NCBI GenBank assembly: GCA_022562795.1
Contig: JADFOP010000001.1
Location: 62,001 to 126,000, forward strand
From: Nitrospinota bacterium
Lineage (GTDB): Bacteria; JADFOP01
Reading direction: 5' to 3'
Length of the DNA: 64,000 nucleotides
Shown here one piece after another: positions 2,512 to 49,308 of the stretch. Numbering within the stretch: the first letter of the stretch is position 1; the number at the start of each line of letters is the position of its first letter. The notes under the pieces are model-generated. The model did no database searches and was not told where the DNA came from. It worked only from the letters and a program-made list of their open reading frames with translations. Made by a program: the position numbers and the translations under genes.

Positions 2512-2548
2512 GCCAGACGCCACAACGGTGGTTTGTTCAGCAGTACCA

Positions 2549-2587
2549 CGAGGAGGGGTTTCCGGTGGGGACCCCTCCTCGTCTTTT
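2549..2587 (+). terminator. Intrinsic terminator after the OFA transporter
   Basis: CGAGGAGGGGT (2549-2559) pairs perfectly with ACCCCTCCTCG (2571-2581), followed by TCTTTT. It isolates the transporter from the next cassette. Confidence 0.92.
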
Positions 2588-2644: not shown

Positions 2645-2673
2645 TTGAAGCTCTCGCCGTGACTTTGTATATT
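2645..2673 (+). promoter_or_regulatory. Promoter of the ubiquitin-like cassette
   Basis: TTGAAG (2645-2650) and TATATT (2668-2673) are separated by exactly 17 bp. The -10 box ends 33 bases before the first start codon of the four-gene cassette. Confidence 0.55.
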
Positions 2674-2706
2674 GGTAGATACCTTTAACCTTAGGGCGCG
2701 GGACGA

Positions 2707-3846
2707 ATGAAGTCTTCCAGCCCACTTCTTAAGCGAGGTGAGCGCCATCCCCCACCGGAGGTGGCGGATGTGATGGGAGAATACGCCGACGCCCTCGGAA
2801 TGGAGGCCGGCTTCGACGATCCACCGAAGGGGTGGCGCATCTCCCCGCGCGACGGCCGCCTCTGGTGTCTCAACGATGCGGCTCCAATCCCTCCCACCAT
2901 CTTTGGCCGCCTACCCGTTTTGCCTCGCGTGCAGCGGGGCGTTATTTTCGGCCATTCTTTGGCCAAGGACGCCTGCACCGCCATTGGCGAGACCCGCCGC
3001 CCAGGCAGGGGGATGCTCATCCGGGATGACGACCGCCTGGCGGTGGCCGAAGTTAAGCGGACGGCCTGTTACCTCTCCTTCGATCTGCTCTCGTGGCCTG
3101 GCCCCATAGCAGCCATCGTGTTACGCAAGGTGCTCGACGCCGCATTGGCCGCCTGCGGAGATAAGCTTGTGGCCAGCAGTCCCCTATCGACCGATGCCCG
3201 GCAGCTAGCGATTAAGGAGCTTGCCCATCGAACCATGTCGGCCGACGCCGACTGGGCCCGACTGCAGGAGAGGGAGGCCCGTCAAGCCCTCATGGAGGCC
3301 GGCACAAACCACGCTTCCAGCCGCCGTATCCATCTAGAGGAAGAGATCTCCTCTCTGGAAGACAACCTGGCCGAGTTCTCCCGACGCATCACGGTTGACA
3401 GCCGCCGTCTGTTCAAGTACCAGCGGGAGTTGGTGTCCCTCGAAGGCGAAGAGGGGGGCGATCCGGTTGATTTCGCCGAAGAATACGACCGGATTCGGGC
3501 CCATCCCCTCGTCGAGGAGCTTACAGCCCAAGACGACCGGCTCACGGTCACCACCCTTCCCCTGACCGCAACATTTGAGGACGAGCTCATCAACCTCGGA
3601 CGGTTTGAAATCAAAATGCACCTCAACGGAGACCTCAGGATCACCAACCTCACACGGCGGATGTGGACCTACGATCACCCTCACATTCGCGAAGGGGTCC
3701 CGTGCCTCGGGAACATCCAGGAGGGTGTGGCGAAGCTCATCGGCACCTATCAGCTTGCCGTCGTAATTCAGGTTCTCATCGACTTTCTACAGCTCGTCAA
3801 CCCCAAGGAGTGGATCGTCTCTGCCCAGTACTGGCGGGATCCCTAA
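2707..3846 (+). CDS. E2 (UBC)-like conjugating protein with long N-terminal and coiled-coil region
   Basis: This is the first gene of the ubiquitin-like cassette, 379 residues. The C-terminal 100 residues look like an E2 fold: beta-meander strands (about 278-320), then HPHI (324-327) in place of the E2 HPN motif. Six residues after the HPH comes a cysteine in GVPCLGN (C333), at the position of the E2 catalytic cysteine. A helix VLIDFLQ (355-361) and NPKEW (365-369) follow, echoing the E2 tail 'LL..PNP'. Residues 185-250 are charged and predicted coiled coil. Residues 1-180 contain scattered cysteines (54, 90, 121, 150) and match no family I recognise. The E2 assignment is inferred from motif order and gene context. 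JAB starts 14 bases downstream. Confidence 0.72.
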   Translation: MKSSSPLLKRGERHPPPEVADVMGEYADALGMEAGFDDPPKGWRISPRDGRLWCLNDAAPIPPTIFGRLPVLPRVQRGVIFGHSLAKDACTAIGETRRPGRGMLIRDDDRLAVAEVKRTACYLSFDLLSWPGPIAAIVLRKVLDAALAACGDKLVASSPLSTDARQLAIKELAHRTMSADADWARLQEREARQALMEAGTNHASSRRIHLEEEISSLEDNLAEFSRRITVDSRRLFKYQRELVSLEGEEGGDPVDFAEEYDRIRAHPLVEELTAQDDRLTVTTLPLTATFEDELINLGRFEIKMHLNGDLRITNLTRRMWTYDHPHIREGVPCLGNIQEGVAKLIGTYQLAVVIQVLIDFLQLVNPKEWIVSAQYWRDP

Positions 3847-3860
3847 GGGGGGCCTCTCAC

Positions 3861-4520
3861 ATGATTGAGCGTGTTCGCGTAAGCCCCGATGCCTGGAGCC
3901 GGATGCGGCTCTACGTCGAGTGCTGTGACACCGAAATTGGGGGCCTTGGGCTTGGGACCTTGGAAGGTTCAATATTCCACCTCGAAGAGGTGGTCCTCAT
4001 CGAGCAGGATGTCACGGAAATGGATACCCTCCTTTCGCCCGACGGGCTTGCCCGCTTCCTCCACGAGCTCGTGGAGGGAGGCGGGAGCCCGGCTCGGGTC
4101 AAAGTCTGGTGGCACAGCCACGTCAACCACGCGCTTAAGTGGAGCAGGCAGGACGAGGAGACCATCCGCCAGCTCAATCACGACTATCTACTCTCCCTGA
4201 TAGGCAATAAGAGCGGCCAATGGCTATGCCGACTCGACCTCGTCGGGCCTCCAGCCCGAACCGTCGAGCCGGTGCCTCTGGGGCCGACCGAGGTGGCCGG
4301 AGCGGTCGATCCGGCCTTGCGGGCCTCCATCGAGCGGGAGGTCGCCGAAAAAGTAAAGTCGTGGGAGCTAGTGCGCATTCCGGGTCAGGGAGGGTTTTTT
4401 TTCGGCACCGAGATCGTGACGAGCGACTATTCCTACGCCCTTGAAAGCTACGGCTCCTTTCTTCTTCCGTGGGAGGGAAGCCACGGCGACCCCGCCTCCG
4501 GGCCCGAAACGGAGGAATAG
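3861..4520 (+). CDS. JAMM/MPN (JAB) metalloprotease, putative deconjugase
   Basis: The 219-residue protein carries the complete zinc JAMM motif: E25 in the strand TEIGGLGLG, then H85-S-H87, seven residues, S95, and D98 (HxHx7SxxD). Enzymes of this family hydrolyse isopeptide or peptide bonds after the Gly-Gly of ubiquitin-like proteins. The partner Ubl here already ends in Gly-Gly, so I infer deconjugation rather than maturation. The start at 3861 follows AAGGGGGG. Open frame continues upstream but would overlap the E2-like gene, so I rejected it. The E1-like gene begins 9 bases after the stop. The C-terminal third, including FFFGTEIV, has no recognised domain. Confidence 0.88.
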   Translation: MIERVRVSPDAWSRMRLYVECCDTEIGGLGLGTLEGSIFHLEEVVLIEQDVTEMDTLLSPDGLARFLHELVEGGGSPARVKVWWHSHVNHALKWSRQDEETIRQLNHDYLLSLIGNKSGQWLCRLDLVGPPARTVEPVPLGPTEVAGAVDPALRASIEREVAEKVKSWELVRIPGQGGFFFGTEIVTSDYSYALESYGSFLLPWEGSHGDPASGPETEE

Positions 4521-4529
4521 GCGGCGGCA

Positions 4530-5177
4530 ATGGATTACTTCCGGCAGATGGACCTCGTTGATCAGGAGGCCCTCGACATCCCGATGGTGGTTATCGGGTG
4601 CGGGGGGATTGGATCGCTGACCACGCTTGCGCTCGCCAAGATGGGCTGTCACAATCTGACGGTCTACGACGACGACATCATTGAGCCTCACAACCTCCCA
4701 AACCAGGTCTACCGGATGGAGGACACGGGGAAGAAGAAGGTGGATGCCATCGGAGACATCCTGCACTCGTACACCGGAGCACGGATAACCGTCCGGCCCG
4801 AGCGAATAGCCGGCCAAAAGCTTCGGGGCGTCGTCATAAGTGGTGTGGACACCATGGCCGACCGGGTCCGGATCTGGCTCGATTCGGTCAAGTTAAATCC
4901 GGCCGTGCCCCTTTACATCGACGCCCGGATGGGGGGCGAGGTGACCCGGATATATTCCGTTCGCCCCGTCGACCCGTTCCATATCCAGTCGTACGAGGCG
5001 ACGCTCTACAGCGACACCGAGGCCGATCCGCTGACCTGCACCGGACGGACAATTATCTACAACACCTTCGCGATTGCTGGTATCATAACCAGCCAGGTGA
5101 AGAAATTTCTCATGGGGGAGCCGTATCACCGGGAGATTCTCTTTGATCTCCACACTTTGACGCTCAACCACAATTGA
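4530..5177 (+). CDS. ThiF/E1-like ubiquitin-activating enzyme
   Basis: This 215-residue minimal E1 should adenylate the C-terminal glycine of the cassette's Ubl. The nucleotide loop is GCGGIG (23-28), the acidic ribose contacts are in YDDD (46-49), and EPHNLPNQ (52-59) matches the E.HNLNRQ motif. K70 and D107 (SGVD) occupy the conserved lysine and magnesium-binding aspartate positions. C170 in DPLTCTG aligns with the crossover-loop thiol cysteine of MoeB and E1 enzymes, so a thioester intermediate is feasible. The CxxC zinc clamps of MoeB/ThiF are absent. Nothing in the neighbourhood suggests thiamin or molybdopterin synthesis. Confidence 0.87.
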   Translation: MDYFRQMDLVDQEALDIPMVVIGCGGIGSLTTLALAKMGCHNLTVYDDDIIEPHNLPNQVYRMEDTGKKKVDAIGDILHSYTGARITVRPERIAGQKLRGVVISGVDTMADRVRIWLDSVKLNPAVPLYIDARMGGEVTRIYSVRPVDPFHIQSYEATLYSDTEADPLTCTGRTIIYNTFAIAGIITSQVKKFLMGEPYHREILFDLHTLTLNHN

Positions 5178-5205
5178 CCCACCACCAGCAGAAAGGGGGT
5201 TCCTT

Positions 5206-5436
5206 ATGAAGCGGTTGACTGTCGACGAGACTAACATCGAGGTTCGGATGGTCTCGATGGGCCGGGGCGTCCAGAAGTTCGTCCGGGAGAAGGGTATCAA
5301 CGTTGGTGATTTCCTCGACCAGATGGGTGTCGACCAAACCATGGACTTCCGTGTCAACGGCGCCCTGTCGGAACGGTCCCGGCCGCTGGAGCACGGCGAC
5401 CAGGTGCTCATCGTCCCGAAAATCAAGGGCGGTTGA
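5206..5436 (+). CDS. Ubiquitin-like beta-grasp protein ending in Gly-Gly
   Basis: The 76-residue protein (ubiquitin is also 76) has the length and features of the ThiS/MoaD/ubiquitin-like beta-grasp fold. These include a helix-forming segment VGDFLDQMG, FRVNG, the LEHGDQVLIVP strand, and a naked C-terminus IKGG immediately before the stop. The exposed diglycine needs no processing before adenylation by the E1 encoded just upstream. The ribosome-binding site AAAGGGGG is strong, suggesting this small substrate protein is made in excess. With only the E1 and JAB it could be a sulfur carrier; the E2-like neighbour favours protein conjugation. Confidence 0.85.
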   Translation: MKRLTVDETNIEVRMVSMGRGVQKFVREKGINVGDFLDQMGVDQTMDFRVNGALSERSRPLEHGDQVLIVPKIKGG

Positions 5437-5463
5437 TTAACTTCCAGCCCACACACCCATCAG

Positions 5464-5506
5464 CAGAGGCGGTCTGAACGAGAAGGTTGGGCCGCCTCTG
5501 TCCTTC
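5464..5506 (+). terminator. Possible terminator of the ubiquitin-like cassette
   Basis: CAGAGGCGG (5464-5472) pairs perfectly with CCGCCTCTG (5492-5500) across a 19-base loop. The tail TCCTTC is only weakly T-rich. It sits between the Ubl gene and the converging YjbQ gene. Confidence 0.5.
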
Positions 5507-31737: not shown

Positions 31738-32931
31738 TTACTCTAGGATTTTGGATATGACGCCGGCGCCGACGGTCCGGCCGCCCTCTCGGATGGCGAA
31801 CCTCAGGCCCTCCTCCATGGCGATGGGCGTTATCAGCTCACCCACCACAGAGACGTTGTCGCCCGGCATCACCATCTCGACACCCTCGGGCAACTTAACA
31901 ATGCCCGTTACGTCGGTCGTTCGAAAGTAAAACTGCGGGCGGTACCCGCTGAAGAAAGGCGTGTGACGCCCCCCCTCCTCCTTCGTCAAGACGTAGATCT
32001 CGCCGGAGAAATGCGTGTGGGGTTTGATCGAGCCGGGAGCGCTCACGACCTGGCCGCGCTCCACATCCTCGCGCTTAAGCCCGCGCAGCAATACACCGAT
32101 GTTGTCTCCCGCCTCGCCGCGGTCGAGAAGCTTGCGGAACATCTCGACACCCGTGGCCACGGTCTTGACCGTCTCTTTGAGACCAACGATCTCCACCTCA
32201 TCGCCGACGGTCACCACGCCGCGGTCCACACGACCCGTCGCAACCGTCCCGCGCCCGGAGATAGAGAAGACATCCTCGACGGGCATCAAAAACGGCTTGT
32301 CCACGTCCCGCTCCGGAACGGGAATGTAGGTGTCGATCGCATCGAGCAGCTCAAAGATGCTCGCACAGTCCGGGTCCTCCGGGTCTCCGCTCTCAAGAGC
32401 CTTCAGCGCGCTGCCCGGGATCACCGGTATATCGTCGCCAGGAAAATCATACTGGCTCAACAGCTCGCGGATCTCGAGCTCCACCAACTCCACCAACTCC
32501 GGGTCGTCAACCTGGTCGACCTTGTTCAGGTAGACCACCAACGACGGCACCCCAACCTGGCGGGCCAAAAGAATGTGCTCGCGTGTCTGAGGCATCGGCC
32601 CGTCAGAGGCGCTCACCACGACGACCGCACCATCCATCTGAGCCGCCCCCGTAATCATGTTCTTTACGTAGTCGGCGTGACCAGGACAATCCACATGGGC
32701 GTAGTGGCGAGTCTCGGTCTCATACTCCACGTGGGCCGTCGCAATCGTGATGCCACGCTCGCGCTCCTCGGGAGCCTTATCAATCTCGTCGAACGAAACG
32801 TAGGAGGCCAGACCCTTCTTCTCAAGCAACAGCGTAATGGCCGCCGTCAACGTCGTCTTGCCGTGGTCGACGTGCCCAATGGTCCCCACGTTCACGTGGG
32901 GCTTCGTCCTTACAAACTTCTCCTTCGCCAT
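31738..32931 (-). CDS. tuf: Elongation factor Tu, copy 1 (str/S10 side)
   Basis: The 397-residue GTPase delivers aminoacyl-tRNA to the ribosome. Motifs are GHVDHGKTT (19-27), RGITI switch I, DCPGHADY (81-88), NKVD (136-139) and GSALKALE (173-180). It is nearly identical to the copy at 48115-49308. I count five differences: P172 here versus K172 there, T201/S, an I/V in the SGE(I/V)YVL strand, V/E in NVSV(V/E)GEL, and S393/A. P172 is the less usual residue before GSALKAL. The gene follows fusA as in the classical str operon. Confidence 0.98.
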
Positions 32932-48114: not shown

Positions 48115-49308
48115 TTACTCTAGGATTTTGGCTATGACGCCGGCGCCGACGGTCCGGCCGCCCTCTCGGATGGCGAACCTCAGGCCCTCTTCCATGGCGA
48201 TGGGCGTTATCAGCTCGCCCTCCACAGAGACGTTGTCGCCCGGCATCACCATCTCAACACCCTCTGGCAACTTAACGATACCCGTTACGTCGGTCGTTCG
48301 AAAATAGAACTGCGGGCGATACCCGCTGAAGAAAGGCGTGTGACGCCCCCCCTCCTCCTTCGTCAAGACGTAGACCTCGCCGGAGAAATGCGTGTGGGGC
48401 TTGATCGAGCCGGGAGCGCTCACGACCTGGCCGCGCTCCACATCCTCGCGCTTAAGCCCGCGCAGCAATACACCGATGTTGTCTCCGGCCTCGCCGCGGT
48501 CGAGAAGCTTGCGGAACATCTCGACACCCGTGGCCACAGTCTTGACCGTCTCTTTGAGACCCACGATCTCCACCTCATCGCCGACGGTCACCACGCCACG
48601 GTCCACACGACCCGTCGCAACCGTCCCGCGACCAGAGATAGAGAAGACATCCTCGACGGGCATCAAAAACGGCTTGTCCACGTCCCGCTCCGGCACGGGA
48701 ATGTAGCTGTCGATCGCATCGAGCAGCTCAAAGATGCTCGCACAGTCCGGGTCCTCCGGATCTCCGCTCTCAAGAGCCTTCAGCGCGCTGCCCTTGATCA
48801 CCGGTATATCGTCGCCAGGAAAATCATACTGGCTCAACAGCTCGCGGATCTCGAGCTCCACCAACTCCACCAACTCCGGGTCGTCAACCTGGTCGACCTT
48901 GTTCAGGTAGACCACCAACGACGGCACCCCAACCTGGCGGGCCAAAAGAATGTGCTCGCGTGTCTGAGGCATCGGCCCGTCAGAGGCGCTCACCACGACG
49001 ACCGCACCATCCATCTGAGCCGCCCCCGTAATCATGTTCTTTACGTAGTCGGCGTGACCAGGACAATCCACATGGGCGTAGTGGCGAGTCTCGGTCTCAT
49101 ACTCCACGTGGGCCGTCGCAATCGTGATGCCACGCTCGCGCTCCTCGGGGGCCTTATCAATCTCGTCGAACGAAACGTAGGAGGCCAGACCCTTCTTCTC
49201 AAGCAACAGCGTAATGGCCGCCGTCAACGTCGTCTTGCCGTGGTCGACGTGCCCAATGGTCCCCACGTTCACGTGGGGCTTCGTCCTTACAAACTTCTCC
49301 TTCGCCAT
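48115..49308 (-). CDS. tuf: Elongation factor Tu, copy 2 (tRNA-linked)
   Basis: 397 residues, five substitutions from the copy at 31738-32931, with all GTPase motifs intact. It carries the usual K172 before GSALKAL. DNA identity with the other copy extends past both ends of the gene: 17 bases upstream through the GAGGAGG ribosome-binding site and about a dozen bases past the stop. This indicates gene conversion. It lies after four tRNA genes, as tufB does in enterobacteria. Confidence 0.98.

Follow-up and report, generated by a model that had tools for sequence, protein, structure and literature searches.

The window analysed here, a stretch of 64,000 nucleotides from a marine Nitrospinota bacterium (contig JADFOP010000001.1, positions 62,001 to 126,000), carries a compact cassette of four plus-strand genes, which encode, in order, a protein resembling ubiquitin-conjugating enzymes (E2), a JAMM metallo-isopeptidase, an activating enzyme (E1) and a ubiquitin-like modifier (Ubl). 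The four open reading frames (ORFs), their order, their coordinates and the intergenic gaps of 14, 9 and 28 bases are as described in the initial annotation, and so are the motifs that it had read from the translations, namely HPxx followed by a cysteine at E2 spacing, the JAMM signature HxHx7SxxD, a thiol cysteine in the E1 and a Ubl ending in IKGG. The cassette and its control signals are laid out as follows:

2548-2582, plus strand: strong terminator-like hairpin, a stem of 16 pairs with CTTTT after it (folded region, -31.4 kcal/mol; z -4.0 relative to shuffled sequences)
2645-2673, plus strand: sigma-70-like promoter TTGAAG-17-TATATT (9/12 consensus match; weak alone)
2707-3846, plus strand: E2-like conjugating protein, 379 residues (UBC fold in the AlphaFold2 model, conserved C333)
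3454-3843, plus strand: part coding for the predicted E2 domain, residues 250-379 (AlphaFold2 model and structural matches)
3861-4520, plus strand: JAMM/MPN+ metallo-isopeptidase, 219 residues (Pfam Prok-JAB, 0.016; conserved catalytic residues)
4530-5177, plus strand: minimal E1/ThiF-fold activating enzyme, 215 residues (Pfam ThiF, 5.1e-18; UBA5 relative)
5206-5436, plus strand: beta-grasp Ubl, 76 residues, ending VPKIKGG (Pfam ThiS, 2.9e-5; recurs beside E2, JAMM and E1 in relatives)

The terminator-like hairpin closes the upstream MFS gene and sets the cassette apart from it. The claim that the unit has its own promoter is plausible, given a match shortly after this hairpin, but 0.7 matches of such quality are expected by chance in the region. 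As to family assignments, the E1 and the Ubl exceed the Pfam cut-offs for ThiF and ThiS, while the JAMM protein stays below that for Prok-JAB and the E2-like protein matches no Pfam family.

The cassette very probably encodes a self-contained, active and reversible pathway for conjugating the Ubl to proteins. According to established E1, E2 and JAMM mechanisms, from which all of the chemistry is inferred, the E1 would adenylate the C-terminal Gly76 of the Ubl, take it over as a thioester on C170 and hand it to C333 of the E2. The E2 would then attach the Ubl to an amino group of one or more target proteins, its N-terminal domain and coiled coil replacing a separate E3, and the JAMM protease would take the Ubl off again.

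The E2-like protein was modelled by AlphaFold2 from an alignment with 30 relatives (mean predicted local distance difference test score, pLDDT, 86), and its model consists of an N-terminal alpha/beta domain (about residues 10-155), a long helix or coiled coil (162-246) and a C-terminal part, in which a helix, a beta-sheet, the HPH loop, the cysteine and two helices follow one another. This C-terminal part is predicted to adopt the UBC/E2 fold, as the initial annotation had proposed, and both the model and the structural alignments move the start of the domain from residue 278 to about 250. When Foldseek candidates from the PDB were re-aligned with VIA, ubiquitin E2s filled nearly all 50 rows for residues 250-379, including Ubc13, UbcH5, UbcH7 and UbcH10 (Z 6.8-7.6, mostly 110-115 residues, 3-4 A), and the top row (Z 7.8) was the kinetochore protein Knl1, an RWD-domain protein. 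The active-site motif consists of H324-P325-H326 and the catalytic C333 (HPH-x6-C). This cysteine, invariant in the 30 aligned relatives, was retained in 49 of 50 cellular and all 23 viral sequences (72/73 in total), H324 in 47/50 and 19/23, and H326 in 46/50 and 21/23, respectively.

The N-terminal half of the E2-like protein, which is also present in closer relatives, comprises a helix, strands, a further helix and then an 85-residue helix. Modelled alone (residues 10-160), it had a low-confidence middle and gave no fold match with the tools used (best Z 3.8); its fold is thus unassigned and need not be new. The E2s of several relatives (KSB1, a deltaproteobacterial bin and the viral contig L120) carry a cysteine-rich C-terminal tail, which might serve as a built-in zinc or E3-like module and is missing from the window clade and from the Myxococcota copy tested.

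The JAMM protein possesses the complete catalytic set E25 and H85-S-H87-x7-S95-x2-D98, of which the two histidines, the serine and the aspartate occur without exception in 57 cellular and 28 viral sequences (85/85) and the upstream glutamate is near-invariant in both. In the E1, a GxGxxGS nucleotide loop is accompanied by R5, D49, K70, D107 and the thioester candidate C170 in an LTCT context, a cysteine kept in 67 of 68 covering cellular sequences and 32/32 viral ones (99/100 where covered). Such near-invariance of catalytic residues suggests that the enzymes are in use and are not relics.

Conservation of the Ubl diglycine is less strict than that of C333: 45 of 65 Ubl ORFs have Gly-Gly no more than eight residues before their terminus, and the rest include wrong ORF ends as well as lineages ending in GA, NG or similar. 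Neither of the two outcomes that the initial annotation had named as refuting it, a C-terminal part without an E2-like fold and a lack of conservation of C333 and the diglycine, was obtained. The window Ubl, with its terminal Gly-Gly, is predicted to be encoded already mature. Loci with the order E2-JAMM-E1-Ubl often likewise end exactly in GG, while those with the order Ubl-E2-JAMM-E1 usually add one or two residues, so that the JAMM protease probably also matures the Ubl there.

Searching GTDB genomes with the E1 led to the identification of 60 loci, distributed over Nitrospinota, Methylomirabilota, Chloroflexota, Omnitrophota, Ignavibacteriota, Calditrichota/KSB1, Myxococcota, Actinomycetota (Rubrobacter), several lineages of Patescibacteria (Candidate Phyla Radiation) and one Aenigmatarchaeota bin. 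Genome searches added a family, f137, which is probably planctomycete and has up to six cassette copies per genome; a KSB1-like phylum has up to four. A chance origin of the cassette is excluded, as the unit recurs, conserved catalytic residues included, at no fewer than 60 further loci. The co-occurrence of the four genes was borne out by the neighbourhood survey, in which Ubl-E2-JAMM-E1 on one strand was found in 45 loci (19 cellular, 16 viral and 10 of f137) and the window order, E2-JAMM-E1-Ubl, in nine (six cellular and three viral). Hence the window order is a minority arrangement and not unique to its lineage, and the cassette is, as judged from these gene runs, inherited as a block. Clustering of neighbouring genes found no fifth conserved cassette gene; apart from the core genes, the only recurrent neighbours were tyrosine recombinases, genes specific to particular lineages and artefacts in the form of antisense ORFs.

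Tandem E2-like ORFs followed by JAMM and E1 were also observed, five in the viral contig L137 (2-5916) and three in an Uhrbacteria locus (L075, 6386-9103), and these E2s look as if they share one E1. In addition, four distantly related hosts, i.e., an f137 genome (L015), Uhrbacteria (L075), the Aenigmatarchaeota bin (L077) and a viral contig (L120), encode a similar AAA ATPase close to the cassette.

The window is an internal part of a 128-kb contig in a genome of 2.15 Mb (84 contigs). A sister species (Nitrospinae bacterium, G001; same genus by the tool's kinship label) has the same four genes in the same order and with the same flanks, an MFS transporter on one side and a UPF0047/YjbQ gene on the other. 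The ratios of nonsynonymous to synonymous substitution (dN/dS) between the two species are 0.19 for E2, 0.17 for JAMM, 0.11 for E1 and 0.23 for Ubl, comparable to those of flanking genes, and all four genes are under purifying selection. The surroundings, judged by eye from translations, are core chromosome with ribosomal proteins, RpoB/C, SecY and EF-Tu, and no recombinase or phage gene was noticed beside the cassette. The linkage to defence islands that had been considered was not found: among 20 neighbours scanned with PADLOC, the sole matches were a dGTPase-type protein and a generic methyltransferase. The best reading is that the cassette has been kept vertically on the chromosome, at one locus in two species.

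Several observations weigh against an active and reversible conjugation pathway. Foldseek found no match to the E2-like model in the PDB below E 0.001, and a PDB sequence search with the E2 profile returned mostly coiled coils, with a ubiquitin-conjugating enzyme only at E 1. None of the 30 aligned E2 relatives matches the Pfam E2 families, and the VIA Z-scores stay below 8 throughout, each middling alone. The predicted E2 assignment is thus carried by the list of folds, the motif and the conservation, and not by a strong score. The window E1 has neither a separate catalytic-cysteine domain nor a ubiquitin-fold domain, and a different E1-to-E2 hand-over must therefore be assumed; the best-scoring solved relative of the E1 family, UBA5 (1.5e-11), supports by analogy, as a fellow compact E1, that a small E1 may work without a separate cysteine domain. 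In three Methylomirabilota loci (L060, L065 and L066), no JAMM gene lies between E2 and E1, so reversibility would not be universal. Moreover, the E2 was not found in G002, the sole same-class genome searched, and the system would therefore be dispensable in the wider lineage.

Bacterial systems with E1, E2, JAMM and Ubl were predicted by Iyer et al. in 2006 (PMC1779556), and the cassette would work like these and like Bil; the principle is not new, as the initial annotation had acknowledged. By the features tested, the cassette is nevertheless not Bil, not CBASS and not PRTRC. The suggestion of a distinct subtype holds insofar as none of these definitions fits, but the gene order is common to several phyla and to viral contigs.

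BilABCD carries the same four activities in one operon (PMC11354881), with a JAMM predicted to mature or remove the Ubl. In Bil, however, the Ubl consists of two domains and the E1 is large, with two adenylation domains (IAD and AAD) and a cysteine domain (PMC11354881), whereas the window cassette has a single Ubl of 76 residues, an E1 of 215 residues, an E2 that has a long N-terminal extension and contains HPH-x6-C, and another gene order. The type II CBASS proteins Cap2 and Cap3 and Iyer types 6a-6c share the E1, E2 and JAB activities, but there E1 and E2 are fused in operons with a nucleotidyltransferase or other partner, while the window cassette has separate genes and its own Ubl; no CD-NTase was found among the scanned neighbours. 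PRTRC and Iyer operon type 6d (Prok-E2_D) also have separate Ubl, JAB, E1 and E2 genes, the E2-JAMM order and a similar C-[WL]-G at the E2 active site, yet their E2 is without the classical histidine (PMC1779556), unlike the near-invariant HPH here, and the PRTRC accessory proteins are absent here. UBA5 of the UFM1 pathway is similarly compact but eukaryotic, and the two resemble each other chiefly in the nucleotide-binding part, over about 75 residues.

The cassette family is also carried by large phages. An E1 query against IMG/VR retrieved 32 contigs, of which 26 have E2, JAMM and E1 clustered and 21 the Ubl too. Scanning viral contigs with an alignment of the E2 domain gave no matches, the E2 having diverged too far for back-translated patterns, while the E1 alignment succeeded. 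Large terminases are encoded on L118, L119, L120, L130, L138 and L143, and major head proteins on L118 and L143; the viral status of the remaining contigs was assessed by one terminase search only. On L117, whose E1 is 52% identical to that of the window, only a helicase was found, leaving its viral nature unproven.

Among deposited phages, 79 records contain an E1 relative. In the jumbo phage PhiXhv-15 (228.7 kb, isolated on Xanthomonas), the E1 adjoins an 892-residue protein annotated as hypothetical (L150, 2283-5657), which has an E2-like segment with HPH...CLG, alignable to the present E2 family (hhalign probability 88.8, E 2.5e-6), and a cysteine-rich tail at its end. No JAMM or Ubl was recognised beside this pair, and nothing beta-grasp-like could be recognised in the small ORF that comes next. 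Flavobacterium phage Fpv3 (L149, 1607-5618) and crAss-like phages, such as crAss001 (gp76-gp78), have a candidate E2-JAMM-E1 order, with JAMM and candidate E2 directly upstream of the E1 as in the window but strongly diverged. Their E1s match the family hidden Markov model down to 6e-37 and the adjoining JAMM proteins at 2e-8 to 4e-12, and the larger protein upstream of JAMM has an H-S-H...C.G motif. In crAss001, gp78 is an E2 candidate by motif and position (hhalign probability 2), and gp79, upstream of it, has a stretch that looks beta-grasp-like by eye, on which Pfam is silent, making it a Ubl candidate. Thus, gp79-gp76 (L151, 2238-6648), annotated as hypothetical, metalloprotease and ThiF, form a candidate diverged Ubl-E2-JAMM-E1 run. 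A tblastn search of annotated phages with two E2s gave no match. The window E1 matches phrog_15670 of PHROGs (crAss001 gp76 and Fpv3) at 7.8e-24, a family labelled 'unknown function'.

The family is therefore spread over many bacterial phyla and large phages, and no earlier report of its carriage by phages was found, although Burroughs/Aravind papers of 2009-2012 or the Bub papers may cover part of it; nor are such cassettes mentioned in a survey of jumbo phages from the group behind the prediction of the bacterial systems. In a 100-row E1 tree, the window and its sister species (L057) group with Methylomirabilota (support 84/92, just below the usual mark), and viral rows are interspersed among cellular ones, with well-supported branches forcing at least four changes. 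The tree does not settle the direction of transfer, being arbitrarily rooted and containing several long viral branches. The chances are about even that the window cassette is a chromosomal branch of a largely phage-borne family, in which large tailed phages encode complete Ubl-E2-JAMM-E1 cassettes, strongly diverged even in cultured crAss-like and Flavobacterium phages, and which bacterial lineages including Nitrospinota took over or supplied.

As for the physiological role, a part in conflict with viruses, or with or between mobile elements, is our leading guess, held with roughly balanced confidence, because carriage of the wider family by phages and integrated elements is a recurrent finding. 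In KSB1-like and Myxococcota genomes, tyrosine-recombinase-like genes were seen about 10 kb or less from the cassette (L014, L034, L035, L037, L038, L041, L043, L044, L079, L080, L083, L084, L089 and L092), which suggests integrated mobile elements. The main alternative is a housekeeping regulatory role in the window lineage, which is possible but on the unlikely side, and the window copy may have been domesticated.

Two more specific explanations are each rather doubtful. One is that Nitrospinota and Methylomirabilota domesticated a former phage cassette for cellular regulation, e.g., to feed a Pup-type proteasome. The several independent changes among the E1s, the conserved synteny, the lack of noticed recombinase or phage genes beside the window copy and the dN/dS values like those of neighbours speak for it, as does a complete Pup-proteasome operon in the same genome (C25, 696-7256; L173), comprising the proteasomal ATPase, two Pup_ligase-family proteins, two proteasome subunits and a Pup that ends in GGQ. 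A Pup-type and a ubiquitin-type tagging system thus seem to coexist in one small bacterium. However, the Pup pathway needs no E1/E2 system, the proteasome was checked in only a minority of cassette-bearing lineages and the tree leaves the direction of transfer undecided. The other is a Bil-like antiphage system tagging a phage structural protein, in the way that Bil reportedly modifies the central tail fibre of the phage (PMC12948488). The shared activities and the phage and mobile-element contexts of relatives agree with this, but the single-domain Ubl and E1 differ from BilA and BilD, and the core-chromosome position, common to the sister species, lies in no defence island as judged from the 20 neighbours scanned.

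A sulfur-carrier system is much less probable. Here the Ubl would be a thiocarboxylate donor of ThiS/MoaD type, ThiF its adenylyltransferase and JAMM a protease trimming the carrier, as in pyridine-2,6-dithiocarboxylic acid (PDTC) and cysteine-synthase operons; the Pfam best matches are ThiS and ThiF, and JAMM-ThiF-ThiS operons of that type exist (PMC1779556, rows 4a-4e). Against this stand the E2-fold protein with its near-invariant cysteine in complete copies, two other, stronger ThiF-family proteins elsewhere in the genome, and the finding of no rhodanese (including rhodanese-fused E1), thiazole, molybdenum cofactor, cysteine-synthase or other cofactor or sulfur gene at the window cassette or its neighbours. 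Finally, a chromosomal relic of the plasmid PRTRC cassette is extremely unlikely, for despite a similar order (E2-JAB pair observed) and a short stretch of profile similarity near the E2 active site (hhalign probability 34, E 4e-4), the window E1 scores 34.3 bits against the PRTRC_ThiF equivalog cut-off of 144.75, and neither PRTRC accessory genes nor, in PRTRC E2s, the HPH histidines are present.

What is known of bacterial E1/E2/JAMM/Ubl pathways concerns mostly their use against phages (Bil and CBASS). If cultured and metagenomic phages do carry a related, separately organised pathway, the question is reversed: are host or virion proteins the targets of tagging by phages, or do phages shield proteins of their own? 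Such a role would be directly testable in crAss001 and Fpv3, both of which can be grown on cultured hosts. With the Nitrospinota copy, one may ask what the pathway does on a core chromosome in a Pup-proteasome genome, and the minimal E1 with a free-standing E2 would be a simple model of E1-to-E2 transfer without eukaryotic accessory domains.

Elsewhere in the window, the ribosomal-protein region contains two EF-Tu genes (31738-32931 and 48115-49308), 16 kb apart, which are of equal length and have an identical start sequence.

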